Shown here piece after piece: positions 1,482 to 32,650 of a stretch of 34,396 nt of DNA. The position numbers were made by a program, and so were the translations under genes. The first letter of the stretch is position 1; each line of letters begins with the position of its first letter. The notes under the pieces were generated by a model. The model was not told the origin of the DNA and ran no database searches. It saw nothing but the letters and a program-made list of their open reading frames with translations. The stretch lies in contig CAMVRM010000038.1 of assembly GCA_947169885.1 (NCBI GenBank), forward strand, positions 1-34,396, given 5' to 3'. The stretch comes from an uncultured Ruminococcus sp. (GTDB lineage: Bacteria > Bacillota > Clostridia > Oscillospirales > Ruminococcaceae).

Positions 1482-2147
1482 TTATTCTATCGGCAGAACT
1501 CTGTCAAAAAGAACGCTCACATTGTCAACGTCCTTATCAACATGGAAGTGACCTGCGAACCAGCGCTTGAATTCAAGATTGTTTTTCAGCCACTCAAAAT
1601 GCCCTGTCAGTTCCTGATCGTGAGCATCGGGTATCTTTCCCAGACGGCAGATTATGCTGTAAGGGATAGTGTGGCTCAGAACATAGTCCACCTTGTAGTT
1701 CACAGCTTCAAGGTGTTTTTTGCCGTTATTGTAATCTTCATTGGTGGGAAGTTCCTGCTGCCACCAGCTTATGTGAGGCTGGCGCATTCCCTTGTCGACC
1801 GAATATGCACCGCCGAACGCATAGAACGTCTTTCCCTCGATGTTGAAGATCTCACCACGCATAAGGTGGAAGATGTTCGTTCCGACCTGATGCGCTTTTC
1901 CGCCGTTCCATTCGATAACGGGGAACTGTTCCAGCTCATCGAAGTCCTCATGGTTGCCGTCAACGAACGCAATGTCAAATTCCTCTTTCTGCAAGTGTTT
2001 CAGGCAGATGCGTGAACTTACATCGTTCCAGACGAACCCGAAATCGCCGCAGATGATGAGCGTGTCGCCCTTGCCTATCTTCGTGTCCCTCAGCCGATAG
2101 ATAGTCTCGTCATAATAGCCGTGTGTGTCACCGGTAACATAGATCAT
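1482..2147 (-). CDS. Metallophosphoesterase (calcineurin-like)
   Basis: The 221-residue protein has all the motifs of the calcineurin-like fold: GDTHG (6-10), GDFGFVWND, GNHEDFD, an internal His region (LSHTIPYS) and GHFH near the C-terminus. These bind a two-metal centre that hydrolyses phosphoesters. The substrate (nucleotide, nucleic acid or protein phosphate) is not evident. The open frame continues upstream to a TTG at 2162, but that codon lies inside the GGAGGG ribosome site, which sits 6 nt before the ATG at 2147. The ATG start (MIYVTGDTHG) is therefore preferred. The gene is 59 nt after the zinc-ribbon gene and may end the long minus-strand unit. Confidence 0.85.
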   Translation of the reverse strand: MIYVTGDTHGYYDETIYRLRDTKIGKGDTLIICGDFGFVWNDVSSRICLKHLQKEEFDIAFVDGNHEDFDELEQFPVIEWNGGKAHQVGTNIFHLMRGEIFNIEGKTFYAFGGAYSVDKGMRQPHISWWQQELPTNEDYNNGKKHLEAVNYKVDYVLSHTIPYSIICRLGKIPDAHDQELTGHFEWLKNNLEFKRWFAGHFHVDKDVDNVSVLFDRVLPIE

Positions 2148-2206
2148 GTTTTTTCCCTCCAATTATTATGTAGTTTTAAATTTGTATATAGTACTCCCGA
2201 AAATTT

Positions 2207-2434
2207 TCAGGAAGTTACTTCCGTATCAAATATCATTTTATGACATTCGGAACAGTAATCAGCCTCGATCGTGAATGCCGCAATAGTATGTTTTGCCGCC
2301 GTGACCCGTCCCTGATCCGCTATCGTATCCGAAAAGCCTGCTTTTTTATCGCCTGCTTTCCACCTTACTGCACTTCTTCCGTCACCCGACAAAATACCTT
2401 TTTCCATTTCTTTTCCGCAAAAAGGACAAACCAT
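2207..2434 (-). CDS. Small zinc-ribbon protein, DUF6487/PF20097-like
   Basis: The 75-residue protein starts MVCPFCGKEMEKG and has a second pair CSEC near residue 58. The two CxxC knuckles would bind one Zn2+. The CPxCGKEMEKG start followed by a short strand-rich region fits the DUF6487 group of small clostridial proteins, whose function is unknown. It begins 16 nt after the acetyltransferase stop, with GGGGG as the ribosome site about 10 nt before the ATG, so it is probably co-transcribed with it. Confidence 0.75.
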   Translation of the reverse strand: MVCPFCGKEMEKGILSGDGRSAVRWKAGDKKAGFSDTIADQGRVTAAKHTIAAFTIEADYCSECHKMIFDTEVTS

Positions 2435-2450
2435 AAGTACACGCCCCCTG

Positions 2451-2906
2451 TCAACTATTTAGCAACACCATTTTTTCCAGCGGTATCCATTCATCTTCAA
2501 GAAAAGTCTCGCCCGTAAGTTCAAAGCCGTGCCTGCGGTAGAAATTCTTTCCACGCTCGTTGTATTTCAGCACAAGAAGATTATCGGCGTGAAGTACATT
2601 TACAGCATATTCCAAAAGCTCACCGCCGATGCCGCCGCTCTGGAACTGCGGCTCGACAAACAGCTTTTTCAGTTCGCCGCCGCCGACACGCATCATGCCT
2701 TTAACAACGCAGTCATCGTATACGTAAGTTTCGTCAAGCGCCTGTGACCCTGACGCATATTCTGCCGCCGTGTCAAGAACATTAAGTTCGCCGAAGTAAA
2801 ACGGCTCGTTTTTGAAAAACGGAAAAAAATTCACCCGATAGTTTATAACGATAAGTTCCGCTATCCGTGAAATGTCTCTTTTCTCGGCAGGTCTTATTTT
2901 TTCCAT
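2451..2906 (-). CDS. GNAT family N-acetyltransferase
   Basis: The 151-residue protein begins MEKIRPAEKRDISRIAEL, the usual first strand and helix of GNAT enzymes. It carries the acetyl-CoA pyrophosphate loop in FVEPQFQSGGIGGELL (Q-x-x-G-x-G/A type) and the C-terminal NERGKNFYRRHGFELTGE strand. It would acetylate an amine using acetyl-CoA; the acceptor is unknown. It starts 35 nt after the helicase stop codon, with a purine-rich repeat tract between them, and precedes the zinc-ribbon gene. Whether it belongs functionally with the helicase module or is only downstream of it is not clear. Confidence 0.85.
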   Translation of the reverse strand: MEKIRPAEKRDISRIAELIVINYRVNFFPFFKNEPFYFGELNVLDTAAEYASGSQALDETYVYDDCVVKGMMRVGGGELKKLFVEPQFQSGGIGGELLEYAVNVLHADNLLVLKYNERGKNFYRRHGFELTGETFLEDEWIPLEKMVLLNS

Positions 2907-2941
2907 GACAGCCGCCTTTCTTAATTCTTATTTCTTATCTC

Positions 2942-5176
2942 TTATTTAGTACCGTAGTTCCAGCTTTTCACAACGGATTTCATTTCGTCCACCGCAAGGA
3001 TACCGTAGGCAAAACCCTTTTTCACAAGTTCGGGCGGAAGATACTCGTCATACTTCTCAAACAGCGGCGTTTCCCCCGGATAGATAAGCTCCATGGGGTC
3101 GAGCGGCTTTGCTATCTCCTCCGCAAGTACCGAGAAAAATTCCTCCTCGCCTGCGTTCATCGTAAACTGTATGTAGTAGGGTCGGACTGCATCTATCCCA
3201 CGCATAACGAGCCGTTCTTTACAGCGTATTTTTAAGAAACGCTCCAGCGCAAAAAACGCATAAGTCCCCACCCACGGAAACAGACACCACATATTGCCGC
3301 CTAAGTTTATGAGGGTTCGCTCGGCGGCGTGTGATGCTTTTGCAGTCATTCTCGCCTGTGCAAGACGTGCGGCGGCGTTCTTCATGAGATAGGGGTACTG
3401 CTTTTCTTCAAGAAGCACCTGCCGCATTCTCCGCAGTATCTTCGTGTTGATGTCGCCCGGACATTCCCCGAAATACGCAGGCACTTTTCCCTTGACAGGC
3501 TCGCAGTATACAAGCCGCCGCCTTGTGTCGATGTCCGTCACTATCCACACCTGTCCTGCTATCGCTATCTTTTCGCCCCTTGGCGGCGGCATGACGATCG
3601 TGCCCAGTTCCTGCGAACCGCACCGAACGGTATACTCGATATTTTCCTGAAAGACCGCAAAGAACTTATAGCTGTTCGTGACCCTCTCGCCCGAAAGCCC
3701 CACCATGAGTTCCCCGTCATCGGTGCGCTCGATGTGACCTGTCTCTATCAGATGCCGCAGAAGTACTTTGTAATCCTCCTGCGTTATGCGGTGGAAATAC
3801 CTGAGTGTCAGCACACGCATCGCAAGCTGTTTCGGGGTAAGCGAACCGCTTGCAGAAAGTACGCTCATCGTCTGGTGATAGAGCAGACTGAACGGAAGTC
3901 GGTCAAGCTTTGGCGGCTCGACCCAGCGTTCTTCAAGATAGACCTGAATGAGCGCTATCCCCTGCATGAGTTTCCATGGGATAGTTGACGGAAGCATCGC
4001 CCTCGGTTCGGGAGCATCTTCACGCATGACGAACCACATCTCGGAAGGCTGTCCACGCCGCCCCGTGCGCCCCATTCTTTGCAGGAATGATGAAACGGTA
4101 AACGGTGCATCTATCTGAAAAGCACGTTCCAGCCGCCCGATGTCGATACCCAGTTCAAGCGTTGAAGTCGTGACGGTCGTCATGCAAACGTCCTCGTCTT
4201 TCATGGCGGCTTCGGCAGTCGAGCGGAATGCTGTCGAAAGATTACCGTGGTGAATGAGAAACCTGTCGGGTTCGTGCTTTGCTTCGCAGTAGGAACGCAG
4301 AGTTGTCGTAACTGCTTCGCACTCCTCACGGGAATTGACGAAGATAAGGCACTTCTTCCCCCTCGTATGCTCGAACACATATCCGAAAGCAGGGTCGGCA
4401 TTCTCGGGCGCTTCATCGGTGGGACGTTCAAGCACATCAAGAGCCTTGACAGCCTTTCCCTCTGCCGCCTGAGTGTCGCTGACGTAGAAATGCTCCATAC
4501 TCAGCCGCCACCGCATACCCTTGCTCTCGATCTTCGGGATAATAGTTCCCCTGCCCGTTCCTGCCGCAAGGAATTTCCCTGCCGCTTCGGGGTCGCCTAT
4601 CGTTGCCGAAAGCCCTATACGCCGTGGAGATGCCCCCGAATCACGGCACAAACGTTCGATAAGGCAGAGCGTCTGCCCTCCCCTGTCGCCCCTCATGAGC
4701 GAATGAACTTCGTCGATAACGATAAAACGCAAGTCTCCGAACAGCTTCGGCAGAGCGGCGTGGCGGCGTATCATCATCGCTTCCAGCGACTCGGGAGTTA
4801 TCTGCAAGACACCCGACGGACGCTTCATGAGCTTCTCTTTGTGCGACTGCGCAACATCTCCGTGCCAGTGCCACACGGGAATGTCGGCTTCTTCGCAAAG
4901 CTCATTCAGGCGCAGGAACTGGTCATTGATGAGCGCTTTGAGCGGCGCTATGTATATCGCCCCGACAGTTGACGGCATATCCTCCTTGAAAAGCGTGAGT
5001 ATCGGGAAGAAAGCCGCCTCGGTCTTTCCCGAAGCAGTCGAGGCGCACAGCAGAACATTTTCCCCGGTGTTAAATATCGCATCGCCTGCCGCCGCCTGTA
5101 TCGCCCTCAGCGACTCCCAGTTGTTTCGATAGATAAAGTCCTGCACGAACGGTGCATATCTGTCAAAAACGTTCAT
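2942..5176 (-). CDS. Lhr-like DEAD/DEAH-box helicase (BrxHI-like), third gene of a TerB-N/BrxD/helicase module
   Basis: The 744-residue superfamily 2 helicase has Walker A ASTASGKT (45-52), DEVH (155-158), SAT (190-192), the TTVTTSTLELGIDIG segment and motif VI QRMGRTGRRG (366-375). A long C-terminal region follows. This layout matches Lhr-like helicases, including BrxHI of BREX type 2 systems, which unwind or translocate on DNA. Its ATG overlaps the stop codon of the BrxD-like ATPase as ATGA at 5173-5176, so the two are translationally coupled. GGAG lies 9 nt upstream of the start, inside the ATPase gene. No BREX methylase (PglX), phosphatase (PglZ) or kinase (PglW) is in the window. A general DNA-repair role like that of other Lhr proteins is possible, but the coupling argues for a dedicated complex. 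Confidence 0.88.
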   Translation of the reverse strand: MNVFDRYAPFVQDFIYRNNWESLRAIQAAAGDAIFNTGENVLLCASTASGKTEAAFFPILTLFKEDMPSTVGAIYIAPLKALINDQFLRLNELCEEADIPVWHWHGDVAQSHKEKLMKRPSGVLQITPESLEAMMIRRHAALPKLFGDLRFIVIDEVHSLMRGDRGGQTLCLIERLCRDSGASPRRIGLSATIGDPEAAGKFLAAGTGRGTIIPKIESKGMRWRLSMEHFYVSDTQAAEGKAVKALDVLERPTDEAPENADPAFGYVFEHTRGKKCLIFVNSREECEAVTTTLRSYCEAKHEPDRFLIHHGNLSTAFRSTAEAAMKDEDVCMTTVTTSTLELGIDIGRLERAFQIDAPFTVSSFLQRMGRTGRRGQPSEMWFVMREDAPEPRAMLPSTIPWKLMQGIALIQVYLEERWVEPPKLDRLPFSLLYHQTMSVLSASGSLTPKQLAMRVLTLRYFHRITQEDYKVLLRHLIETGHIERTDDGELMVGLSGERVTNSYKFFAVFQENIEYTVRCGSQELGTIVMPPPRGEKIAIAGQVWIVTDIDTRRRLVYCEPVKGKVPAYFGECPGDINTKILRRMRQVLLEEKQYPYLMKNAAARLAQARMTAKASHAAERTLINLGGNMWCLFPWVGTYAFFALERFLKIRCKERLVMRGIDAVRPYYIQFTMNAGEEEFFSVLAEEIAKPLDPMELIYPGETPLFEKYDEYLPPELVKKGFAYGILAVDEMKSVVKSWNYGTK

Positions 5177-6489
5177 ATGTCGAACTCCGCAAAGTCAGTG
5201 CCTTCCGTTTCCTCATCGCCCTCGGGAAGTGCGTGTTTGAGCGCCCCCGATGCGATAAAACCGCTCGGGTCAATCTCAGGATTCTGGTAAATAATGTCAA
5301 GCAGTTCGATAAAATCACGTATGACCTCTCGCGGAGTTATGCGGCTGTCAGCGCCAATGCGTGAGAATTCGTCCTTGATGAACGCTATCATGTCGTCCTG
5401 CGTGACACGCTGTTCATAGCCGAAAAGCTGAGAATGAATGTCCGCAAGCTTCTCGGTCAGCACCAGCATTTCTTCATAAGTCAGCGGAACAAGGTGGATA
5501 ACGGGCGCTAACATATCACGTATGCCCTCACGTCCGTAGCGCCCCTCTGCAAGCCTTGAACGCAAAGCTTCATAGCTGTAAACACCCTTGCGTGTGTCCT
5601 CAATGCACTGTGGAGTGCCGCCCATGATGATGCCTAAGTACTTCGCCTTTCCCTGCAAGGTATCGTTATACATCGTGAGTATCTTCTCGTAATTATACTG
5701 ACGGGTGATAGAATTGGGTATCTTATAGATGTTCACCAGTTCGTCTATAAGCACCAGCATTCCGTTATAGCCTGCTTTTTTCAGGAACACTGCGAACAGC
5801 TTGATGTATTCATACCAGTCGTCATCGCCGATGATGATATTCACGCCCAGTTCCTTTTTCGCTTCCGTCTTGGTGGAATATTCGCCCCTGAACCACTTGA
5901 CGACTTTTGCTTTTGTTTCGTCATCGCCGTTCTGCGCCGCCTTGAAATAGATGTTCAGAAGCTGTGCAAAGTCAAAGCCGTGTACCATTTCGTTCAGAGC
6001 GTTTATGACCTCGAATATCTTTCGGCTGACAAGTTCGTTCTGCTGTTCGTGCGAAATATCCGTGCCGTTTTCCTGAGCGACTTCCGCCATAACGCCGCTT
6101 ATCCAGCGGTCTAAGATGAGCGTGAGAGCGCCGCCCTCGGGACGTGTTTTTGTCGAAAGATTGCGGATAAGTTCCTTGTATGTTGCAAGCCCCTGACCCT
6201 TAGTTCCCTGCAAACGTCTTTCGGGAGAAAGGTCGGCATCTGCCACAACAAATCCCCTGTCCATGACGTGGGTGCGGATAGTCTGCAAAAGAAAGCTTTT
6301 TCCGCTGCCGTACTTGCCGACTATGAAACGAAATGACGCTCCGCCGTCAGCGATAATGTCAACATCGTGCAAAAGAGCATCTATCTCCAGCTCTCTGCCG
6401 ACTGTGATGTATGCAAGCCCCGTTCTCGGCACAACTCCGCCTTTGAGCGAGTTGACAACTGCTGCGGCAATGCGCTTTGGTATCTTCAT
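5173..6489 (-). CDS. BREX-type ATP-binding protein (DUF2791/PF10923, BrxD-like), second gene of the module
   Basis: The 438-residue P-loop ATPase has Walker A GKYGSGKS (58-65) and Walker B LVLIDE (245-250). Between them is the family's conserved segment RRLQGTKGQGLATYKELIRNL (91-111). This combination is that of PF10923, the BREX system ATP-binding domain found in BrxD. Such proteins act with a partner Lhr-like helicase, probably as a DNA-responsive ATPase; biochemical detail for stand-alone members is lacking. Both junctions are ATGA overlaps, with the TerB protein gene at 6486-6489 and the helicase gene at 5173-5176. The three products are therefore probably made in fixed ratio and act together. 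AAGGA lies about 12 nt before the start. Confidence 0.88.
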   Translation of the reverse strand: MKIPKRIAAAVVNSLKGGVVPRTGLAYITVGRELEIDALLHDVDIIADGGASFRFIVGKYGSGKSFLLQTIRTHVMDRGFVVADADLSPERRLQGTKGQGLATYKELIRNLSTKTRPEGGALTLILDRWISGVMAEVAQENGTDISHEQQNELVSRKIFEVINALNEMVHGFDFAQLLNIYFKAAQNGDDETKAKVVKWFRGEYSTKTEAKKELGVNIIIGDDDWYEYIKLFAVFLKKAGYNGMLVLIDELVNIYKIPNSITRQYNYEKILTMYNDTLQGKAKYLGIIMGGTPQCIEDTRKGVYSYEALRSRLAEGRYGREGIRDMLAPVIHLVPLTYEEMLVLTEKLADIHSQLFGYEQRVTQDDMIAFIKDEFSRIGADSRITPREVIRDFIELLDIIYQNPEIDPSGFIASGALKHALPEGDEETEGTDFAEFDI

Positions 6490-8021
6490 GGCAGTATCAT
6501 TCCTTTCAGTTCGTCAATATAATCCTCGATAAGCAGGGGCGTTTCACCGTCAAATCCAATAACAGTGTCGCCGAAAATATCGAACAGCTTTTCGTTCACG
6601 GAATCTGCAAGCAGAGACACCATTGACCCTGCCGAACGTGCGGCACTGTCGGCATCACCGCCGTACAAAAGTGCCTTCATGAAAGCCGTTTCAGCCGTAC
6701 CGAGAGGCGTTTCGCTGTCCGTCTGCGGTTCGGGAACAGTAACCGGCTCGGGCTGTTCGGCGGCGGCGATCTCCGCAAGCTCATCTTCATCAACGATAAG
6801 CTTTTCACGGGTGATGTCAGATGCTTTTCTGATGCCGTCAAGCTTTGAAATATCTATCTCTATATCCTGCACCTGCGGCTTTACAGCGCTTTCTTCAAGG
6901 CTGTCGAGGACTTTCTTCATGAGCGTTTTCAGCTGTTTCGGCGGTTCGTCAGCTTTGAGAAGTCTTGACATCCCGTTTCGCCGTCTGAGTTCGTTCTCGG
7001 TCATGCGTACAAATTCTCCGAGGTGCTTACTGCTGTGACAGCCCGAAAGATAACGCTTGCAGTACCACATTCCGCCCGTCAGCCGAAAACTGTGCAGTTC
7101 GTTCAGTTCGTAGTCAAAGCTCTCGATGCCGTGTCTCGGATAAAGCACCGCCCCCCGAAACATAGTGTAGCGTGTGATAGCTTCACCGCCTATCAGCTTG
7201 TCGAACAGCGTTTTGATGTGGCTCTTGCCGTACTGCTCCGCATATGCACGGTATACCGCCGCAAGCCCCTTTTCAAGAATGTTGTCAGACTTTTCAGCAT
7301 ACGCCGAATTTCTCGGGTCATATGAAGAAGCGGTGCAGACTGCCTCAAAAAGTTCGCTGTCGGTGTGTTCTTCGTAATGTTTGAGCGTGATGAGTGCCTT
7401 GTCCAGCTGAACATCGGGATGGCTGTCAAGAAGTGAGGGGTCAAGCCTGTTATACACAACATGGTCGAATATCCAGCCGCTGAGTTCGTCACGTATCTCG
7501 GGACATTTTTCACTGTAAGCCGCCGCAAAGTCAGTCAGCTTGTCAAAGGCTTCACGCTCGTCCGAAACGCCTATCAGGTTGATAAGTTCATATGCGTAAA
7601 GCTTCATGTATGCAAGACAGGTCATCGGTGTGCCGCCGTGTCTGACCTCGGTGCGCCATGTGAAATAAGTCCTCAGCTGTGCCGTTGAAAGATCCTTGTA
7701 AACGGGCATATCACGGCTTGTTTCTTCCCTGCCCTCAAAGCTGTCCTCATAATCTGCGGCAACTTTCCCCTGTGCGGCGAACAGCCACTCATTGGTCTTC
7801 CACGCCACATCGGGACGGTAAGAGAGCCGCTTCATTTCATCAATAACAGGCGGCAGAGGGTCACTGCTCTGCATCTTCACCTGCTTCGCTCTGCCCGTTT
7901 GCAGGCTTGAAGCAGGGCGCAGTATCGGCTCGTCCTTATAGATTTTTCCGCCGAAAGCCTTGCTGTTTTTCAGCTTTTCGTCCGAAAGTATCTTGTCGAT
8001 AAGGTCGTTAATATCAGCCAT
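6486..8021 (-). CDS. TerB-N/TerB-C domain protein, first gene of the helicase-ATPase module
   Basis: The protein has about 511 residues. After a disordered N-terminus, residues about 60-270 contain the TerB-N signature (NEWLFAAQGK, then QLRTYFTWRTEVRHGG and KLYAYELINLIG). A helical middle has CHSSKHLGEFVRMTENELRRR, a Glu/Pro-rich linker follows near 410-440, and the last 70 residues (LADSVNEKLFDIFGD, then LIEDYIDEL) fit TerB-C. These domains are known from tellurite-resistance-linked stress and defence systems, where they accompany P-loop ATPases and SF2 helicases; a scaffold or metal-sensing role is proposed for TerB folds. An ATG at 8027 is also possible, but GGGGGG sits 6 nt before the ATG at 8021. 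The stop overlaps the ATPase start (ATGA). It follows the deaminase gene by about 20 nt. Confidence 0.82.
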   Translation of the reverse strand: MADINDLIDKILSDEKLKNSKAFGGKIYKDEPILRPASSLQTGRAKQVKMQSSDPLPPVIDEMKRLSYRPDVAWKTNEWLFAAQGKVAADYEDSFEGREETSRDMPVYKDLSTAQLRTYFTWRTEVRHGGTPMTCLAYMKLYAYELINLIGVSDEREAFDKLTDFAAAYSEKCPEIRDELSGWIFDHVVYNRLDPSLLDSHPDVQLDKALITLKHYEEHTDSELFEAVCTASSYDPRNSAYAEKSDNILEKGLAAVYRAYAEQYGKSHIKTLFDKLIGGEAITRYTMFRGAVLYPRHGIESFDYELNELHSFRLTGGMWYCKRYLSGCHSSKHLGEFVRMTENELRRRNGMSRLLKADEPPKQLKTLMKKVLDSLEESAVKPQVQDIEIDISKLDGIRKASDITREKLIVDEDELAEIAAAEQPEPVTVPEPQTDSETPLGTAETAFMKALLYGGDADSAARSAGSMVSLLADSVNEKLFDIFGDTVIGFDGETPLLIEDYIDELKGMILP

Positions 8022-8045
8022 GACCATCCCCCCATTACCTGCGGA

Positions 8046-8444
8046 TCATATCCACCATTCAGGCGTGATCTCTCCCAGTTTCACCGTCCGTCCCGTTTTC
8101 GTGTCAAGCATTATCTCGATGTCCTTATAGCTGTCGGGCATGAGCTGTACCATAAGTTCCCTGCAAGCACCGCACGGCGCACCCGAACTTCCGTCAGGCA
8201 TGACCGCAAGCACTCTGTCTATCTCCTGCTCGCCGTTGGTCATCATGTTGAAAATAGCGTTTCTTTCGGCACAGATGCCGAGTGTCGAACAAGTGTCGAC
8301 ACAAACGCCCGTGTATATCCTCCCCGACTTCGACCTCACCGCCGCCGAGACCTCTCCGCAGGTGACGTAACCCGAAATTTTCCGTGCGTTCTGCACAGCT
8401 TTTGCGGCTTCAAACATCTCGTTCCAAATTTTATCCATTGTCAT
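8046..8444 (-). CDS. Cytidine deaminase-like protein (CDA fold)
   Basis: The protein has about 130 residues and the zinc-dependent deaminase signature CAERNAI followed by PCGACRE, giving a Cys/Glu and two-Cys zinc site. It differs from the second deaminase at 12767 in its ends and middle and looks nearer to blasticidin-S-deaminase-like or divergent CDA proteins. The true substrate (cytidine, deoxycytidine or another nucleoside) cannot be set from sequence. The ATG at 8444 overlaps the preceding acetyltransferase stop as ATGA, suggesting coupling. A second ATG at 8438 has better spacing (8 nt) from GAGG and may be the real start. The TerB gene begins about 20 nt downstream. Confidence 0.82.
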   Translation of the reverse strand: MTMDKIWNEMFEAAKAVQNARKISGYVTCGEVSAAVRSKSGRIYTGVCVDTCSTLGICAERNAIFNMMTNGEQEIDRVLAVMPDGSSGAPCGACRELMVQLMPDSYKDIEIMLDTKTGRTVKLGEITPEWWI

Positions 8445-8959
8445 TTCCTCACTATGTATCTGTTTATTTTTACTGTCTTATTTTTAAGCGGAAGAAATTC
8501 CTCATCGGTACGCTGATATTTCCCTCCGCACTTTTCTATAACACGTATCGAACCGATATTTTCGGGCATGGCATCAATACGCACCTCATTAAACCCACGC
8601 TCAAAAAGACAGGAAAGCACACCCTTGCAGGCTTCCGTCATTATTCCCTGCCCCCAGTATCTCCGGGACAGCACATACCCGATAACAGGCGTTCCGTCCA
8701 GATACCCCACAACATCTATACTGCCGATGAGCGCACCTGTTTCTTTCAGCACTATCGCAAAATTCAGGCGTTCGGGCTTTTCATATTCTTTCACCCACAT
8801 TTCAAGAACAGCCTTAGTCTCGTTTATATCCCTGTGAGTGTTCCATGTGAGATAGCGTGTTGCTTCGCTGTCGCCTGCCCAGCCCTCAAACATATCCCGA
8901 GCGTCAGAAAGTTCAAACGGACGAAGTGTAAGACGCTGTGTCTCCAATGTCAGTTTCAT
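8441..8959 (-). CDS. RimJ/RimL-type GNAT acetyltransferase
   Basis: From the ATG at 8959 the protein has 172 residues. It begins MKLTLETQRLTLRPFELSDA, the standard N-terminus of the RimJ/RimL branch (Acetyltransf_3), and has the acetyl-CoA loop in SRRYWGQGIMTEA and the C-terminal NIGSIRVIEKCGGKY segment. It probably acetylates an N-terminal amine or a small molecule; the target is unknown. The frame stays open up to 9019, but that extension runs through the rplS terminator hairpin. GAGG lies 9 nt before the ATG at 8959, so the shorter form is chosen. It would be the first gene of the minus-strand unit leading into the TerB module. Confidence 0.85.
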   Translation of the reverse strand: MKLTLETQRLTLRPFELSDARDMFEGWAGDSEATRYLTWNTHRDINETKAVLEMWVKEYEKPERLNFAIVLKETGALIGSIDVVGYLDGTPVIGYVLSRRYWGQGIMTEACKGVLSCLFERGFNEVRIDAMPENIGSIRVIEKCGGKYQRTDEEFLPLKNKTVKINRYIVRK

Positions 8960-8974
8960 ATATTTGTCCTCAAA

Positions 8975-9013
8975 AAGCAAAAAGAGCCGACGCTCCCAAA
9001 AGAACATCGGCTC
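8975..9013 (-). terminator. Terminator of rplS
   Basis: On the minus strand GAGCCGA and TCGGCTC form a stem around a 16-nt loop, followed by TTTTTGCTTTTT. It lies 15 nt past the rplS stop and leaves only about 15 nt before the next gene, so that unit may depend partly on read-through. Confidence 0.8.
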
Positions 9014-9027
9014 ACACATTCAGGCGA

Positions 9028-9375
9028 TTACTTGATAGCTTCCTTTACCTTAGCAGCCTTACCAACTCTGTCACGCAGATAGTAGAGCTTAGCACGGCGT
9101 ACCTTACCGGATCTTACGATCTCTACCTTCTCAACTGAGGGAGAATGTACAGGGAAGACTCTCTCGATACCACAGCCGTGTGCAACACGTCTTACAGTAA
9201 AGGTCTCGCTGATGCCGCCGTGTTTCTTGGCGATGATAGTACCCTCGAAGATCTGGATACGGCTGGGCTTGTCGCCCTCCTTGATCCTTACGTGTACCTT
9301 AACAAGATCGCCGACGTTAACTACGGGCATCTCCTTTTTCATGCTGTCCTGAGCAATGAGCTTCAATGCGTCCAT
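9028..9375 (-). CDS. rplS: 50S ribosomal protein L19
   Basis: The 115-residue protein is a full-length bacterial L19. It has GDLVKVHVRIKEGDKPSRIQIFEG near the N-terminus, then GGISETFTVRRVAHGCGIERVFPVHSP, and ends with VRRAKLYYLRDRVGKAAKVKE. L19 sits at the 30S/50S interface (bridge B8). A strong AGGAGG lies 9 nt before the ATG. The gene has its own promoter and a structured leader of about 180 nt, and ends in a good terminator. In many bacteria rplS follows rpsP-rimM-trmD; here it follows TIGR03936 instead, as a separate transcription unit. Confidence 0.97.
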   Translation of the reverse strand: MDALKLIAQDSMKKEMPVVNVGDLVKVHVRIKEGDKPSRIQIFEGTIIAKKHGGISETFTVRRVAHGCGIERVFPVHSPSVEKVEIVRSGKVRRAKLYYLRDRVGKAAKVKEAIK

Positions 9376-9558
9376 TTTTCTAAAACCTCCTGATGATTTT
9401 CAGACATTCATACGCCTTATGGCTCGTTCTCACCCGAACGAACAAGGTCAGAGGACTGTCCGCTTTAATGTCGTGCTGCGCACCTTTTGCCGCAGCGTTG
9501 GCATTAACTCCCGTCTGCGAAGCACAGACGGCTGCTGTTTTCACAGCTATTTAAATGC
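9376..9558 (-). ncRNA. Structured 5' leader of rplS (possible L19 autoregulatory leader)
   Basis: Between the predicted start site and the L19 ribosome site the minus strand can form several hairpins. These are GCTGT/ACAGC with a GAAA loop (9534-9547), CCGTCTG/CAGACGG (9511-9531), GCTGCG/CGCAGC (9475-9496) and CGTTC/GAACG (9425-9440). An autoregulatory L19 leader is known in Firmicutes (Rfam L19_leader). Whether this one matches that model cannot be tested by eye. Confidence 0.55.
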
Positions 9559-9564
9559 TTAAAT

Positions 9565-9593
9565 ATTATATCACATCACACGCCGTTTTTCAA
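9565..9593 (-). promoter_or_regulatory. rplS promoter
   Basis: On the minus strand TTGAAA (9588-9593) and TATAAT (9565-9570) are separated by 17 bp. It abuts the end of the TIGR03936 gene and would give a leader of about 180 nt. Confidence 0.85.
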
Positions 9594-9600
9594 TAGGCAT

Positions 9601-10314
9601 TTAAGCAAATTCTTCACCGTTCGCAGCAAGTATTTTTGTGCGTTCTGTACAAACTTGTTCGGGTTCAGTCTGAGCGAAAGCAAAAAACGCATCAGTCACC
9701 ACCGAACTGTTAAGGTTGAACTCACCGCCTGCGGGAAGTCTCAGGGTCAGCATCAGCGCATTTTCCCGTGCCTGCGCCGAAACGACCGTGATATGCGGCT
9801 TTATGTCAACAAGCTTCACGCCGCCCTGCTTTCTGCCTTTTTTGGGCTTGGTGCGTTTTTCTATCGTTATTTCTTCCTGCGAGACAAACTCCTGCCATTT
9901 TTCAAGCAGGCTGTCGGCAGGCGCATCGAGTTCGGCACGGATAACGTATTCCGCAGAAGCGATGTCCGTGTGCTTCATGACTGGACGTGCGGCGCTGACG
10001 AAATACAGTCCCTCGGGCATGGAAGAATTGAGCATATCCACCACCTTATCGAACGGTATGTCCTCGGTAAGCGCAATGTCAAGTATCTCAACTTTACTGT
10101 CAGTCCCGAGCGGCAGTGCAAGCGGAAACATAAGATAAGCGTGAGGATTGAACCCCTGCGTATACCAGATCGGCACACGGGCACGCTTTATCGCACGCTG
10201 CATGGTGCGCATAAGGTCAAGGTGCGAGATATACCTTGCTCTCCCCTCCTTGGCGTAAGTCAGGCGGTAGTCCCACCGCTCAATATTCAGATTCTGATTT
10301 TTCGGCATCAACAT
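9601..10314 (-). CDS. TIGR03936 family radical SAM-associated protein (DUF2344)
   Basis: The 237-residue protein contains RYISHLDLMRTMQRAIKRA and YTQGFNPHAYLMFPLALPLG, the hallmarks of TIGR03936/DUF2344. Members are nearly always next to or fused to the TIGR03960 radical SAM protein, as here, and are thought to be its partner in an RNA or protein modification that is not settled. The ATG has AAGGGG 9 nt upstream. It starts 85 nt after the TIGR03960 stop, across an AT-rich gap of TAAGAAATAAA-type repeats. In many clostridia the pair precedes rng-rplU-rpmA; here rplS follows. Confidence 0.92.
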   Translation of the reverse strand: MLMPKNQNLNIERWDYRLTYAKEGRARYISHLDLMRTMQRAIKRARVPIWYTQGFNPHAYLMFPLALPLGTDSKVEILDIALTEDIPFDKVVDMLNSSMPEGLYFVSAARPVMKHTDIASAEYVIRAELDAPADSLLEKWQEFVSQEEITIEKRTKPKKGRKQGGVKLVDIKPHITVVSAQARENALMLTLRLPAGGEFNLNSSVVTDAFFAFAQTEPEQVCTERTKILAANGEEFA

Positions 10315-14240: not shown

Positions 14241-14795
14241 ATGCAGAACAATGTTAAAGAATGCTGGTTCTATCAGCTTTGCAAAAAAGAATGTGCAAAA
14301 GATGTAGGTCTGATATTCGTGGGCATAGCGATAGTTGCTGTGTGCCTGCTGCTGTTCATGGTCGTTATAAGCACCTATCAGATACTGGGTATCATTTTCG
14401 GCATCGCACTTATCATAGGCGGTTTTGCTGCATTTTTCGGCAAGCTCCCCAAAGTGAGGACTTTCCTCGAATCAATGCCCTATGAGTGGTACAAGACCCT
14501 CGGAAATGTTCCGCCGAAAGATATGTACAAGACCTTCTACTTCACTGATTATTACCTTTGCATACCCGGTGAATATGTCATGGTGAGATATACAGACATA
14601 CTTGACATAAAGATCACCGAGAACCGCACCAACGGCGTAACTAACGGCTACACTGTCGGACTTGTGCTTGCAGGCGCAAAGAACGGCGTTGATGCCACTG
14701 TCAAGGAGTGGAAAAGCTTCGGCACGACTTATCAGCAGCTTGTTGACGAGATAAACGCACGCAAGCTCGCTATGGCTCAGGCTGTTCAGGGCTGA
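14241..14795 (+). CDS. Small membrane protein with two TM segments and a PH-like cytosolic domain, function unknown
   Basis: This 184-residue protein is not a named family that I recognise. Two hydrophobic segments lie at about 22-45 and 47-67. The C-terminal soluble region has the run YFTDYYLCIPGEY followed by VRYTDILDIKITE, a pattern like bacterial PH-type domains (a buried strand, then a Y-x-DI strand). The next gene has the same layout and a similar run, so the two are probably paralogues. AAGGAG precedes the ATG. Its TGA overlaps the next ATG by one base (TGATG), so they are coupled. Position inside a Phe-tRNA synthetase operon is conserved context at most and does not give a function. 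Confidence 0.75.
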   Translation: MQNNVKECWFYQLCKKECAKDVGLIFVGIAIVAVCLLLFMVVISTYQILGIIFGIALIIGGFAAFFGKLPKVRTFLESMPYEWYKTLGNVPPKDMYKTFYFTDYYLCIPGEYVMVRYTDILDIKITENRTNGVTNGYTVGLVLAGAKNGVDATVKEWKSFGTTYQQLVDEINARKLAMAQAVQG

Positions 14796-15370
14796 TGAAC
14801 GCAAAGTTCTGCAAAAGGCGCTTTCTTAAAACGGCTGCATACGCCGCACCGTTAATGCTCGTTCTCATATGGCTGCTTCCGCTCATCATATGGTACAGAC
14901 TGACGGAATACTCCGACCACACCGTGAGCGAGTTCTTTAACTTCGTTGGCAAAAAAGGCGTTATCATCTATTCAATAGCAGTTGTTCTGTTCATCATCGT
15001 GTACTTTGTAAAAAGATACATGGATTTTTCGGAACAGCTGAAAGATCTTCACTTTTCGGGAAAGACGGAATGCGAGTACAAGCTCGCACTTTTCCGCCTG
15101 ACACTCACCGATGAGGGACTTATCTGCACAAACGGAATGGCTGTGAAATATGCCGATATAGACCGTGTGCTTATCGAATGCAGCGAAACGGAATCGCTTA
15201 ACGTTTATCATATGTACGTCTACCGTCACGAGGGAAAACGGCTGATGATCCCCGTGGGCTTGCGCACCATGCCGAAAAGCTTTGACGCTGAACTTGAAAA
15301 GTATAATGTTGAGGTTCTGCGGCAGATGCGTCCGCTGTTCGGCAGGAGCGGCAGGATAAGAAATGAATGA
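14795..15370 (+). CDS. Second small membrane protein, two TM segments plus PH-like domain, function unknown
   Basis: The 191-residue protein has a basic N-terminus (MNAKFCKRRFLK), TM segments at about 14-34 and 53-70, and a cytosolic part with LTLTDEGLICTNG then VKYADIDRVLIECSE. This matches the first protein's TD..L / Y-x-DI pattern. The later MYVYRHEGKRLMIPVGL strand fits a YcxB-like or PH-like fold. The start is fixed by the TGATG overlap with the preceding gene. The pair could form a hetero-oligomer in the membrane; that is inference from layout and coupling. It ends 15 nt before the next gene. Confidence 0.75.
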   Translation: MNAKFCKRRFLKTAAYAAPLMLVLIWLLPLIIWYRLTEYSDHTVSEFFNFVGKKGVIIYSIAVVLFIIVYFVKRYMDFSEQLKDLHFSGKTECEYKLALFRLTLTDEGLICTNGMAVKYADIDRVLIECSETESLNVYHMYVYRHEGKRLMIPVGLRTMPKSFDAELEKYNVEVLRQMRPLFGRSGRIRNE

Positions 15371-15385
15371 CTGTGGAGGTTCATA

Positions 15386-16066
15386 ATGGCAATAAGAATA
15401 TCTCGTTCTTTAACGGAAAAATATGAGGGCAAGGACGGCTTCCGACTGATCGACTATTCAATTTATCACAGTGAAAAGGACGAATGTTACTTTTATTCAT
15501 GTGAGGTAAAAGCTGATGAGGAAGACCTTAAAGAGTTAATGAGCCAAACTGATGACTTGACACTCACCTATAAAAAAGACCCGTTTTTCAACGGGCAGTT
15601 CATGCTCACCGTCAGAACGATATGTGATTCAGTATTTGATCTGACGATGATCGCAAATTTCACAACATCAGTCTATAAAGAACTGGTCTTTTTTGAGAAT
15701 GAGGACAACAGGTTTCTTTGCGCCGATGAGGCTCATACCACAAAGATCATACTCAACGAGAGGGTGGTAAGAGTTCCGGATTACCTTGTACGCTGTGAAC
15801 AGCTAGGCAGTGAATCATTCGAGGCAAAAGAATCTGAACTGTATCTGATACGGCTTCTGAACCCTGTTGACAATGAGTTGAGAGCCTTTAAAGTTGAGCA
15901 TGATCTTTCGTCTGCCGGATACAAGCTCATGCTTTTCGACCATAAGACAGCTTACCTTGTTTTCGATAACGGCGGAACAGTAAACGCACTGATATTCACC
16001 TGTGACGGTTTTACCGAAATAATAAACAGCAAAGAACTTTCAAAAAGACTTAACGGTCATAATTAA
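15386..16066 (+). CDS. Hypothetical soluble protein in the pheS-pheT operon
   Basis: The 226-residue protein is acidic, without signal peptide or TM segment, and I do not recognise a family. The sequence alternates strand-like stretches (DECYFYSCEVKA, LTYKKDPFFNGQFMLTV) with charged turns. The C-terminal half (SELYLIRLLNPVDNELRAFKVEHD, YKLMLFDHKTAYLVFDNGG) looks like repeated beta hairpins. GGAGG lies 6 nt before the ATG. It lies 24 nt before pheT. Its base composition is slightly more AT-rich than that of pheS and pheT, which might point to later insertion. Confidence 0.7.
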   Translation: MAIRISRSLTEKYEGKDGFRLIDYSIYHSEKDECYFYSCEVKADEEDLKELMSQTDDLTLTYKKDPFFNGQFMLTVRTICDSVFDLTMIANFTTSVYKELVFFENEDNRFLCADEAHTTKIILNERVVRVPDYLVRCEQLGSESFEAKESELYLIRLLNPVDNELRAFKVEHDLSSAGYKLMLFDHKTAYLVFDNGGTVNALIFTCDGFTEIINSKELSKRLNGHN

Positions 16067-29903: not shown

Positions 29904-30530
29904 CTATCCGAAGCGTGCCTGATCTGCCGCACGGTTGACCGCCATTTCAGCGGCTGAAAGCATTCTGTTATAGTAACGTCCGCTGTAAACATTGCCTTCA
30001 AGCACTCGGTCGCTCACCGAACCGCACCCTAAATATACATAACCGCCTCTGCCTGTCATCCCACTGGTATTGTTGGGTATATTAGTAAAAGTATCAGCCA
30101 ATTCGCCATTAACATATACGTAGGCTATTGCATTTGGAATGTCAACTACTACTGATATAGTAATAAGTTCTCCAACTAGCCACGAATAGGAACTATGATT
30201 ATGATACCATTCGCCGTTAATTGCCATATCAATTTTTCCGTAATTCATTGATGCTATGACAGTTGCAGAACTTATGTCATAACCATATGGCGCAAATTCA
30301 AGAAAACGCATATACTCGTTGTTGGTTGATGTGATTTTTGCACATACCTCAAACGTATAACCGTTTGAAAAATCAAGTCCTTGGCCGATTAACACCTGAC
30401 TGCCGACCTTGCCGATGTCCTTGTCGGTGTAGTAGAACAAGCCGTTTTGAATGTACTGCGGTATAAGTTCAGCAACTTCCGAATCGCCGAAATAGAGCTT
30501 TGATGTGCCGCTTCCGAAAATGATGTTCAT
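29904..30530 (-). CDS. LamG/concanavalin-like phage tail appendage protein
   Basis: The 208-residue protein has a jelly-roll pattern: LDFSNGYTFEVCAKI, MRFLEFAPYG, KIDMAINGEWY, ITISVVVDIPNAIAYVYVNGELADTF and RVLEGNVYSGRYYNRMLSAAEMAVNR. The closing NG.....T..........GN..S.R.YNR.LS..E pattern is typical of LamG-like domains at the ends of phage tail fibres, which bind glycans. The ATG overlaps the stop of the 63-residue gene (ATGA at 30527-30530), with GAGGAGG upstream. It is the last of four coupled tail-like genes. It could instead be a host surface-binding protein, but it has no signal peptide. Confidence 0.78.
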   Translation of the reverse strand: MNIIFGSGTSKLYFGDSEVAELIPQYIQNGLFYYTDKDIGKVGSQVLIGQGLDFSNGYTFEVCAKITSTNNEYMRFLEFAPYGYDISSATVIASMNYGKIDMAINGEWYHNHSSYSWLVGELITISVVVDIPNAIAYVYVNGELADTFTNIPNNTSGMTGRGGYVYLGCGSVSDRVLEGNVYSGRYYNRMLSAAEMAVNRAADQARFG

Positions 30531-30718
30531 TCATTCACCTCCTCGGGATCGGGCGTTACGATATAAAGCGTGTGAGCATCGTGCGAAGCCATTGCCGAAT
30601 AGACCGACTGAGTACATTCAACTATGCTGACCCCTCCGAGCCGTGTGAGAATGTCGGCAACAGAATCGAGCTTTGCGTCTATCTGTGTGCCTGTGTATTT
30701 TCCGATATAAGCTGACAT
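30527..30718 (-). CDS. Short phage tail-fibre-like protein
   Basis: The 63-residue protein has VECTQSVYSAMASHDAHTLYIVT, the motif (sequence then Y-x-A-x-x-x-x-D-x-x-T-L-Y-I-V-T) seen at the ends of many phage upper tail-fibre proteins. The N-terminal IGKYTGTQIDAKLDSV is also typical of tail proteins. The ATG directly follows the previous TAA, with GGAGGG inside the previous gene. The TGA overlaps the next start (ATGA). It is small but well supported by its coupling on both sides. Confidence 0.75.
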   Translation of the reverse strand: MSAYIGKYTGTQIDAKLDSVADILTRLGGVSIVECTQSVYSAMASHDAHTLYIVTPDPEEVNE

Positions 30719-31288
30719 TTAACGTCCCTCCTTGTATTTGATATATGCCGTTTCAGGTCTCAGCACCGAGCCTGCCGCAAGGTAAACACGCCCGTCAGCG
30801 TCTGCGAACTCCAAGCCGTCAGCCGTAAGGTAGCTCACCGAAACGAGTTCAGTGTCTATCACGTTCGTGCCGCTGAAAGTCGGTACAGCAGGCAGAGGGA
30901 CAGGCGGCTGAGTAGGTGTAAGCACACCGCCCGTCTTGCGATAAACTTTCTGCTCGGCAAAGCTTATGTATTCGTCCTGCATAAGCTGTCCTGACCCGAT
31001 ATAGACCGTCACGCCTGCCGAATACCGACCGCTTCTGACAGTTACGGGAATCGAGTAGCCATAAGGTCCGCCGTTATCTATACCGACACCCTGCGAACCG
31101 AAAGTACTGCCGTAAATTCGGTAATCTTTGAGCGGCGAGCCGTTGGCGATAAAAGTTAGCGGAAGTTCGCCCGACATTTCAGCGTAGCTTCTTATGCTGT
31201 CTCTGAGCATCCATCCCCAGATAAGTGCGGTCGGATCATCAACAGGCAGACCGTGATAAGCTTTAAGAACATCAAGCTTATTTACCAA
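30719..31288 (-). CDS. Phage tail/baseplate-like protein
   Basis: The 189-residue protein contains LPLTFIANGSPLKDYRIYGS followed by GYSIPVTVRSGRY and VTVYIGSGQLMQDEYISFAEQKVYRK, a run common in tail or upper baseplate proteins of clostridial siphophages. It has a Pro-rich segment at about 124-134. The start is a TTG at 31286-31288, with GGGGTGAG just upstream inside the preceding gene. It overlaps that gene by 11 nt. No capsid, terminase, portal or integrase gene is in the window, so this is an isolated tail module. Confidence 0.75.
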   Translation of the reverse strand: MVNKLDVLKAYHGLPVDDPTALIWGWMLRDSIRSYAEMSGELPLTFIANGSPLKDYRIYGSTFGSQGVGIDNGGPYGYSIPVTVRSGRYSAGVTVYIGSGQLMQDEYISFAEQKVYRKTGGVLTPTQPPVPLPAVPTFSGTNVIDTELVSVSYLTADGLEFADADGRVYLAAGSVLRPETAYIKYKEGR

Positions 31289-31577
31289 GAGCGCTCACCC
31301 CATTCGCAGGCGAAGTATCATCACCTGCCGAGTAAAGCTGAGAAACGGTCTTGCCTGCGTTATCGCCCGTCTGTACTACCCAATCGCCCGAACTGTCGAG
31401 CCTGAGAATTACTGCATCGTCAACAGCGTGGGCGATACTGCCGAAAGCGAATGTCACGCCGTCAAGTTCGGTGAGGTCTTCAAGCTCGGCGGCAGTATCG
31501 CAGACAAGCGAGACTACCGTCATGAGTTTGTTATCCTCACTGCGAACAAATCTTTCGTTTGGTTCTCTTTTTACCAT
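31278..31577 (-). CDS. Small phage-like protein, first gene of the tail module
   Basis: From the ATG at 31577 the protein has 99 residues. It is acidic with a basic start (MVKREPNERFVRSEDNK). LVCDTAAELEDLTELDGVTFAFGSIAH and ILRLDSSGDWV match the style of small proteins encoded beside tail-fibre genes in clostridial prophages, but no named family is certain. AGGAGG lies 7 nt before the ATG. An upstream frame to 31694 exists but passes through the repeats and promoter. The stop lies inside the start of the next gene. Confidence 0.75.
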   Translation of the reverse strand: MVKREPNERFVRSEDNKLMTVVSLVCDTAAELEDLTELDGVTFAFGSIAHAVDDAVILRLDSSGDWVVQTGDNAGKTVSQLYSAGDDTSPANGVSALGK

Positions 31578-31600
31578 TTGTTTTCCTCCTGAAAATGAAT

Positions 31601-31640
31601 TTCGTGCTTTTTTTGTTCGTTTCGTGCTTTCTTGTGCTTC
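31601..31640 (-). repeat. Direct repeats in the 5' leader of the tail module
   Basis: TTCGTGCTTT occurs at 31601-31610 and 31621-31630, and the related CTTGTGCTTC at 31631-31640. The spacing is 20 and 10 bp. They lie just downstream of the predicted transcription start, where a repressor could bind. Confidence 0.6.
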
Positions 31641-31650
31641 TCTGTTTATT

Positions 31651-31678
31651 ATCATACTCGGTTTTCGCAAAAAGTCAA
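31651..31678 (-). promoter_or_regulatory. Promoter of the phage-tail-like module
   Basis: On the minus strand TTGACT (31673-31678) and TATGAT (31651-31656) have a 16-bp spacer. It is about 75 bp upstream of the first tail gene. Confidence 0.7.
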
Positions 31679-31859
31679 TTGGCAGATTGCACAAACTTTA
31701 ACACAAAAAAATGTACTTTATAACAATTAAGTTCATAATATATATTGTATTTCTCCGAAATCATGCTGTTATCGCATAGAAATATTCACCTATAAAGCTA
31801 AAATTCCAGCATCAAAAAATATCTCTCATCTTTTATCTGTTAAAAAGGCGTGTTTGCTC

Positions 31860-31888: not shown

Positions 31889-31926
31889 TAGTGAGTACAA
31901 AAGATCACCCGAAAGGAAATATTACC

Positions 31927-32184
31927 ATGAAGATCAACGAAACATTCACACTTGAAAACAACGGCGGCGAATGCGTACTGCGCTCCGAGGGCGGCAGAGT
32001 GTCCTATACCGTGACTGCGAACCCCACAGCCGCACTTGTGCTGGAATTGCTCTCGCAGGAAACTTCCCTCGATGAGATAGCCGACAGCCTTTTTGAAAAG
32101 TTCGACGCTCCCCGTGAGGTCATTTCCGCTGACGTTTCGGCGCTGATAGGTCAGCTAAGAGAGATCGGCGCAATTGATGACTGA
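31927..32184 (+). CDS. PqqD-like peptide-binding (RRE-type) protein
   Basis: From the ATG at 31927 the protein has 85 residues. It shows the PqqD pattern: N-terminal strands (NETFTLENNGGECVLRSEGG), NPTAALVLELLSQ, then ETSLDEIADSLFEKFDAPREVISADVSALIGQLREIGAI. This winged-helix fold binds leader peptides in RiPP pathways and also occurs as stand-alone chaperones. A GTG at 31891 is in frame but overlaps the promoter; AAAGGA before the ATG decides the start. The next gene starts inside its end (8-nt overlap). No precursor peptide or radical SAM partner is seen nearby. Confidence 0.85.
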   Translation: MKINETFTLENNGGECVLRSEGGRVSYTVTANPTAALVLELLSQETSLDEIADSLFEKFDAPREVISADVSALIGQLREIGAIDD

Positions 32185-32650
32185 ACGGCTGACTTTTGAG
32201 GAATATCTCGAACAAAACGGAACGCTCACCTATTACAATGTCGGCGTGAGTATGCTCCCATTGCTAAGACAGGGAAAAGACCTGTTCACCGTGGAGAAGA
32301 CCGACGGCAGGCGCTTGAAAAAAGGCGATGTGGTGCTGTACCGCCGCCGCTCGGGACGTGCCGAAAACGGCGTTGAATATGTTCTGCACAGGATAATCCG
32401 TGTCACCGAAAACGGCTATGTCATTCTGGGCGACAACTGCATAAACAAGGAATACGGCATTGCCGACAGCGACATTTTAGGGCGCATGACAAGCGTCACA
32501 AGAAACGGCAGGACGCTTTCTGCTGACTCTTTTCCCCTGCGTGCTTACGGCGCATTATGGGTCGGGATAACGCCTGTTCGGGTGCTTTTCAAAAGGGCTG
32601 TGCTTTTTGCTAAACGCTCTGCAAAAAAAATATCGAGGTGCTTTAAATGA
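32177..32650 (+). CDS. S24/S26 family peptidase, SipW-like Ser/His type
   Basis: The 157-residue protein has the Ser25 motif VGVSMLPLL, KKGDVVLYRR (48-57), His71 in VLHRIIRV, and YVILGDNC (81-88). The His in place of the Lys of type I signal peptidases is the mark of the S26B/SipW group. It could cleave a leader or signal peptide. A hydrophobic segment at about 120-143 may anchor it to the membrane, but there is no N-terminal TM. The ATG at 32177 overlaps pqqD-like by 8 nt, and its TGA overlaps the kinase start (ATGA). Peptidases of this kind often follow a PqqD-like gene in clostridia. Confidence 0.87.
   Translation: MTERLTFEEYLEQNGTLTYYNVGVSMLPLLRQGKDLFTVEKTDGRRLKKGDVVLYRRRSGRAENGVEYVLHRIIRVTENGYVILGDNCINKEYGIADSDILGRMTSVTRNGRTLSADSFPLRAYGALWVGITPVRVLFKRAVLFAKRSAKKISRCFK

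Follow-up and report, generated by a model that had tools for sequence, protein, structure and literature searches.

Gene content and surroundings of the locus

The window, a stretch of 34,396 nucleotides from an uncultured Ruminococcus sp., contains three genes on the reverse strand (2942-8027) encoding a TerB_N...TerB_C protein, a BrxC/BrxD-family P-loop ATPase, and an SF2 helicase, here designated sngA, sngB, and sngC after their probable family (Table 1). The ORF coordinates bear out the original prediction that the genes are coupled by 4-base overlaps at both junctions. The prediction had ended the trio at 8021, an in-frame ATG two codons within the longest sngA ORF; this position stands as a possible start, as does 8027, to which the longest ORF extends. 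The proposed domains were recovered in a Pfam profile search: SngA contains TerB_N (PF13208, 2.8e-24, residues 83-231) and TerB_C (PF15615, 1.8e-20, residues 379-508), SngB contains BrxC_BrxD (PF10923, 2.4e-171, residues 3-412), and SngC contains DEAD (2.6e-28) and Helicase_C (2.5e-17), with no Pfam domain above the cut-off beyond residue ~380. The translations also contain the quoted motifs GKYGSGKS, LVLIDE, DEVH, and QRMGRTGRRG, and Pfam recognised no nuclease or methylase domain in any of the three proteins.

The solved helicase closest to SngC by sequence is YprA (2.1e-27). Against curated Lhr-type models, the helicase core of SngC scored well under the thresholds, at 166.5 for NF010338 (cut-off 849) and 192.3 for TIGR04121 (cut-off 850). 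SngA and SngB had no significant match by sequence among solved structures. An AlphaFold model of SngA (mean pLDDT 87.1) matched the fold list only weakly and only through its C-terminal part, the helical TerB_N part being barely probed by that list; the end of the protein looks winged-helix-like in this predicted model.

Table 1. Features of the locus, in window coordinates
Feature	Coordinates	Strand	Description and basis
sngA	6486-8027	-	513 aa, TerB_N...TerB_C protein; 511 aa if the start is the ATG at 8021
sngB	5173-6489	-	438 aa, BrxC/BrxD-family P-loop ATPase
sngC	2942-5176	-	744 aa, SF2 helicase of the BrxHI/Lhr-like kind
Stretch missing from relative G005	2148-8048	.	sngABC, GNAT gene, and small Cys-rich ORF; blastn
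GNAT acetyltransferase, within the missing stretch	2451-2906	-	Pfam Acetyltransf_7, 9.1e-10
Small ORF, within the missing stretch	2207-2434	-	~75 aa, two CxxC pairs, zinc-ribbon-like; read by eye
Calcineurin-like phosphoesterase, flanking, common to empty site	1482-2162	-	Metallophos, 6.4e-11; 72% nucleotide identity in G005
Cytidine deaminase, flanking, common to empty site	8046-8444	-	Pfam dCMP_cyt_deam_1, 7.3e-09; block 71% identical in G005
GNAT acetyltransferase, flanking, common to empty site	8441-9019	-	Acetyltransf_3, 1.3e-31; same 71% block

The trio is an accessory block behind the cytidine deaminase gene. In a blastn comparison with the relative G005 (L052 against the window), the aligned blocks are separated by 5,901 bases in the window versus 45 in G005, where the L19 gene and the phosphoesterase gene lie 1.1 kb apart; either gain here or loss in G005 would account for the difference. 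The GNAT gene within the missing stretch shows no evidence of belonging to Shango. No tRNA was found in the window, Pfam gave no mobile-element match in those flanking ORFs that were scanned, and the junction bases, read by eye, showed no obvious repeat. As for a promoter of sngA itself, only weak promoter-like sites were present, no more than in shuffled sequences.

Assignment to Shango

The best PADLOC family for each protein is its Sng family. SngA matched over residues 26-511 of 513 (1.5e-65, 220.8 bits), SngB scored 630.6 bits (3.8e-190) versus 177.4 bits against BrxD, and SngC scored 908.9 bits (7.4e-274) versus 432.7 bits against BrxHI. Among 80 named loci that were fetched, 53 had enough flank for gene order to be read, and 50 of these carry A-B-C on one strand, a recurrence far beyond chance that, together with the co-occurrence described below, supports the view of the three genes as one unit. 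On these family matches, the trio is almost certainly the Shango anti-phage system, sngA-sngB-sngC, and would itself be an already-known system rather than an unnamed module.

According to the accessible part of PMC10250203, Shango restricts phages and was tested in P. aeruginosa, with a test of E. coli Shango likewise reported there and Millman et al. 2022 cited on the systems of P. aeruginosa PA14 and E. coli. The earlier statement that the trio had no tested function is therefore out of date, and the phage-defence role proposed for it gains support from these other members of the family. The portion of a 2026 review that was available (PMC12926258) still lists the Shango mechanism as unknown.

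As described in the same part of PMC10250203, the PA14 and E. coli systems likewise combine a TerB-like protein, an ATPase, and a DEAD/DEAH helicase, the likeness of the window trio to them resting on the PADLOC Sng family models; those systems occupy a defence hotspot or immune islands, whereas the window copy lies among housekeeping genes, and that part of the paper describes no assay of a clostridial copy. A locus on plasmid 4 of Sulfitobacter faviae (L171), listed as Shango in a table of PMC10221251, as far as that source was available, has the same A-B-C order, with 40.6% identity in SngB and 32.8% in SngC over full length. Its SngA is 847 aa long versus 513 aa here, with only a marginal BLAST match, and its trio is followed by PD-(D/E)XK nuclease and UvrD-helicase genes, a feature of the Sulfitobacter locus.

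Distribution, neighbours, and divergence of the trio

SngB is present in 5 of 13 genomes of the genus and 23 of 197 of the family, the window's own genome included. SngB-like genes, a few of them BREX, occur in 690 of 72,556 plasmid records, and 542 of these 690 are conjugative plasmids. Patchy presence, plasmid copies, and the empty site in G005 mark the Shango locus as accessory and mobile. A phage-borne origin was considered and rejected: SngB had no match in 50,697 phage records, and pattern-based, non-exhaustive scans of IMG/VR yielded no confirmed relative with a SngB or SngA alignment.

Anantharaman and colleagues are said to have predicted in 2012 that TerB_N/TerB_C proteins join DNA-processing or anti-phage systems. 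Unlike Ter-type stress and defence neighbourhoods, the window has no terC-, terD-, or terY-type gene among the 30 other ORFs scanned. Across the family of loci, neighbours were tested at 30 of the 80 loci fetched by taking the closest two ORFs on either side (118 proteins), leaving out loci with one gene missing, short flanks, or a B-C gap above 600 bases, one near copy (L121, of L092), and ORFs that were truncated at an end, shorter than 120 aa, or at least 1,200 aa long. At 1e-30, four of the 118 matched known defence families, two of them through models of one family, PDC-S27. The control, proteins around the L19 gene in stretches from nine genus members, gave 0 of 108 (109 were listed), and is a weak one, drawn from one genus and comparing whole stretches with nearest ORFs. 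The difference is small, with no clear enrichment of defence genes. At these 30 loci the nearest ORFs are seldom known defence genes. A core locus lacking a link to defence islands had been named as what would speak against the original prediction; the few defence neighbours agree with the second half of that description, and the genome counts contradict the first.

The three proteins have diverged to different extents. Mean pairwise identity between species (105 pairs from 15 trios) is 31.8% for SngA, 68.3% for SngB, and 68.7% for SngC, and in one species pair dN/dS is 0.184 for SngA versus 0.046 and 0.060 for SngB and SngC. Positive selection on SngA is unsupported, every dN/dS window being below 1. 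The divergence of SngA would fit a recognition role.

Proposed mechanism and alternative roles

Overall, the best explanation, and a reasonably probable one, is that the trio is a Shango anti-phage system. How it might work can be sketched only tentatively, and even the likeliest scheme is rather doubtful: the three proteins would form a single DNA-surveillance machine in which SngC would travel along DNA, SngB may load or lock the complex, and SngA, the most divergent part, may recognise a phage DNA structure or a phage protein and switch the motor on. Since the trio has no recognised nuclease or methylase domain, the likely outcome would be that phage replication is stalled or remodelled, or that phage DNA is passed to a separate nuclease, rather than BREX-type modification-restriction.

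YprA has a role in repair, and its position as the closest solved helicase to SngC favours a different reading, in which the trio is a DNA-damage or genome-maintenance complex in the chromosome's ordinary gene set, with SngC a repair helicase (like MrfA/YprA), SngB its loader, and SngA a stress-linked adaptor. The scarcity of defence genes nearby is in line with this reading, as are the genomes (7 of 27) in which the three genes lie apart amid ordinary chromosomal genes yet are retained as a set. It is nevertheless unlikely, given the patchy presence even within the genus, the plasmid copies, the empty site, the divergence of SngA, and the anti-phage tests of Shango in the available text of PMC10250203. 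Less likely again is a system directed at plasmids or other DNA entering the cell instead of phages, in which the helicase-ATPase pair would act on any foreign replicating DNA. A helicase and an ATPase with no nuclease are compatible with such a role, and E. coli islands are common to Shango and the anti-plasmid system ApsAB (PMC11096173, in the part available), but most SngB-like plasmid records are themselves conjugative plasmids, and phage protection is what the accessible part of PMC10250203 reports.

The original prediction likened the last two genes to brxD-brxHI, and the PF10923 ATPase and BrxHI-like helicase support this. In the BREX type 2 locus of Polaromonas pPNAP01 (L172), too, a PF10923-type ATPase gene is directly followed by an SF2 helicase gene with a 4-base overlap, the products being 21% (BrxD) and 32% (helicase) identical to those of the window. 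That locus, however, carries pglX and pglZ, whereas in the window's own genome, at 98% completeness, PF10923 has one match and PglZ (PF08665) none. The predicted lack of BREX partners was likewise confirmed among the 30 other window ORFs scanned, in which no DNA-methylase, PglZ, or PglW-type Pfam match was found. SngB reached 175.8 bits against the NCBIfam BrxD model NF033438, under its cut-off of 350, and in a tree a very long branch separates the single BREX row, whose placement is unsure, from every Shango row. The reading as a cut-down BREX type 2 system, with TerB in place of PglX, PglZ, and PglW, is rejected as highly improbable on the much higher scores of SngB and SngC with the Shango models and the lack of PglZ in the genome.

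Within the preferred Shango reading, the trio behaves as a unit, because SngA and SngB occur in an identical set of 23 of 197 family genomes and SngC in 22 of these. A less expected observation is that in some relatives the trio genes are scattered across the genome, yet the full set is present; they are unlinked in 7 of 27 SngB-positive genomes, a count qualified by the draft state of these assemblies. It is possible, at somewhat less than an even chance, that Shango became chromosomal on more than one occasion in Ruminococcus-like bacteria, there forming an immune complex that works in trans from unlinked genes. The points of separation would differ (A|BC, AB|C, A|B|C), sister species would have retained the same gene positions, and the set would be kept all-or-none, with SngA still changing as the recognition subunit. 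The divergence of SngA, if it holds, makes it the first candidate for mutation or exchange. If the scattering is real, finders that require adjacent genes would under-count Shango; it would also suggest that phage-defence systems are open to domestication and then escape tools based on gene neighbourhood.

Identity of the window trio

The original prediction of three overlapping genes encoding TerB, ATPase and helicase domains was upheld by ORF positions and Pfam searches: the first protein carries TerB_N and TerB_C, the second matches BrxC_BrxD over nearly its full length, and the third contains DEAD and Helicase_C. PADLOC profiles, run protein by protein, gave top-family matches of 1.5e-65 for SngA, 3.8e-190 for SngB and 7.4e-274 for SngC, identifying the trio by profile as the three proteins of Shango, an already known system that had been rightly picked out from raw sequence.

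According to one report (PMC10250203), Shango of P. aeruginosa PA14, made up of a TerB-like protein together with an ATPase and a helicase, was cloned into PAO1, where it lowered plating 10-100 fold for many, not all, phages and generally protected liquid cultures; the recently found E. coli Shango is stated there to give ~10-fold inhibition of two phages. A Sulfitobacter faviae plasmid is likewise tabulated as a Shango carrier (PMC10221251), with the coordinates of locus L171. Between this locus and the window, SngB (41% identity) and SngC (33%) align over full length, and SngA gives only a marginal match. Of the two genes immediately 3' of its sngC, the PD-(D/E)XK nuclease is possibly a partner nuclease. 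The earlier impression of BREX type 2 is explained by the grouping of SngC with BrxHI, DruE and DpdJ in a published helicase tree (PMC12278908); the Polaromonas BREX-2 pair is 21% (BrxD) and 32% (helicase) identical to its window counterparts.

Coordinates of features in the window and in related loci
Sequence	Position	Feature
Window	8027-2942	sngA, sngB, sngC, consecutive, minus strand
Window	6486-6489; 5173-5176	4-base gene overlaps in the trio
Window	14241-16066	Three ORFs between pheS and pheT
Window	29904-31694	Laminin_G_3-domain protein, short companion ORFs
Window	31891-33141	Consecutive PqqD-like peptide chaperone, signal-peptidase-like and P-loop-like proteins
L171 (Sulfitobacter plasmid)	6015-9811	PD-(D/E)XK nuclease and UvrD-helicase genes
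L124	8529-10004	SngA broken into two ORFs
L132	8009-9791	SngA broken into two ORFs
L073	8107-9399	SngA ORF stopping early
L187	9461-10324	Abi_2-family gene upstream of scattered sngA
L189	9462-10340	Abi_2-family gene upstream of scattered sngA
L150 (Bacteroidales bin)	3783-6813	Type II methylase-methylase-restriction set

Accessory distribution and co-retention

Shango is an accessory locus, with SngB in 5 of the 13 genomes of the genus and 23 of the 197 of the family (2 of 6 and 18 of 147, respectively, among those at least 90% complete; own genome included). A SngB search gave no match in G005, the relative nearest to the window by ribosomal protein L19 (97%). In its genome, aligned blocks holding the phosphoesterase on one side and the deaminase-GNAT pair on the other are separated by 45 bases; in the window, where these genes flank Shango, the corresponding distance is 5,901 bases. 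Elsewhere in the window, the ORFs between pheS and pheT lack Pfam or NCBIfam matches; two have relatives in G005 (64% and 33% identity) whose order is swapped, and the third has no relative among the two G005 ORFs compared. The group with the PqqD-like protein is possibly a small peptide-maturation cluster or remnant, and the Laminin_G_3 group gives the impression of phage-tail or surface proteins.

SngB-like genes occur in 690 of 72,556 plasmid records, all less than 60% identical and not all Shango, since the weakest plasmid row among the matches listed is a BREX BrxD; none was found among 50,697 phage records. The 80 named loci are the best of 505 confirmed relatives and therefore lean to close kin; among them, the window's nearest rows are uncultured Ruminococcus and R. 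flavefaciens, and rows labelled Bacteroidales, Coriobacteriia, Victivallales and Lactobacillus stand at ~70% identity. The two Bacteroidales rows used cluster with Lactobacillus hamsteri in SngB and SngC trees (100/99 and 99/97), which points to transfer, with the caveat that most rows come from metagenome bins.

The three genes are retained together in the sampled genomes. SngA (E up to 1e-10) was found in 23 of the 197 family genomes, the identical set to the SngB-positive ones (E up to 0.001), and SngC in 22, all within that set, at a strict limit (E up to 1e-80) chosen to exclude other helicases; the one genome of the set without SngC is G144, at 75% completeness and with SngB reaching a contig end. 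At the named loci (best 80 of 505), SngA was found at 63 of 64 having at least 2.5 kb upstream, SngC at 64 of 66 having at least 3 kb downstream, and the A-B-C order on one strand at 50 of 53 with both flanks sufficient; these loci and the family set are not fully independent, as the contigs of L113, L122 and L141, judged by their length, belong to both. The split or short SngA at three loci, each with SngB present, reflects either decay or assembly error.

Scattered Shango in relatives

SngB-positive genomes number 27 (the 23 family genomes plus genus members G004, G007, G008 and G011). The trio is linked in 17, including G188 with a 4.4 kb B-C gap; loci are cut by contig ends in three (G091, G144, G204); and in seven draft genomes all three genes were found but scattered (loci L065, L067, L069, L070, L072, L073, L081, L088, L186-L192 and L195). 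sngA stands apart from sngBC in G031 and G190, sngAB apart from sngC in G133, G004, G008 and G007, and all three apart in G105; the poorest case is G007, with SngB cut by contig ends and a short SngA ORF of 430 aa.

Scattered genes are surrounded by ordinary genes, and local G+C is consistent among the loci of a genome (G031: 0.511, 0.502; G105: 0.455, 0.450, 0.444; G190: 0.495, 0.495). The same TetR gene, which occurs in 12 of 13 genus genomes, adjoins SngC in G004, G007 and G008, a position common to the species. In G105 and G190, SngA adjoins an Abi_2-family gene and glycerol-3-phosphate dehydrogenase and acyltransferase genes. In both species the Abi_2 gene lies immediately upstream, at a shared gpsA-plsY position; among 113 loci compared by BLAST, the remaining 111 hold no relative of it. 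Taking the shared positions into account, the scattered arrangements in these draft genomes would represent four separate dispersals.

Neighborhood and proposed function

The nearest ORFs of Shango loci do not show a general defence island: 118 proteins from 30 loci gave four defence-family matches at 1e-30, compared with none among 108 control proteins. Isolated links do occur: the Abi_2 gene adjoining scattered SngA, the type II restriction-modification set between sngB and sngC at L150, and a large serine recombinase downstream of sngB at L144.

Besides profile identity, joint retention in the sampled genomes and accessory distribution, the analysis shows that divergence differs among the Sng proteins. 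As members of their families, SngB and SngC are expected to have ATPase and helicase chemistry. The trio may act as a single DNA-surveillance machine, in which SngA would be the recognition part, SngB the loader and SngC the motor, working without modification of host DNA. The main rival is that the trio, above all in its scattered forms, serves in repair. Unlinked Shango genes found no mention in the literature covered, a weak negative given partial texts and a scope outside most subscription journals. Novelty lies in the scattered, all-or-none Shango of the relatives, not in the window's trio.
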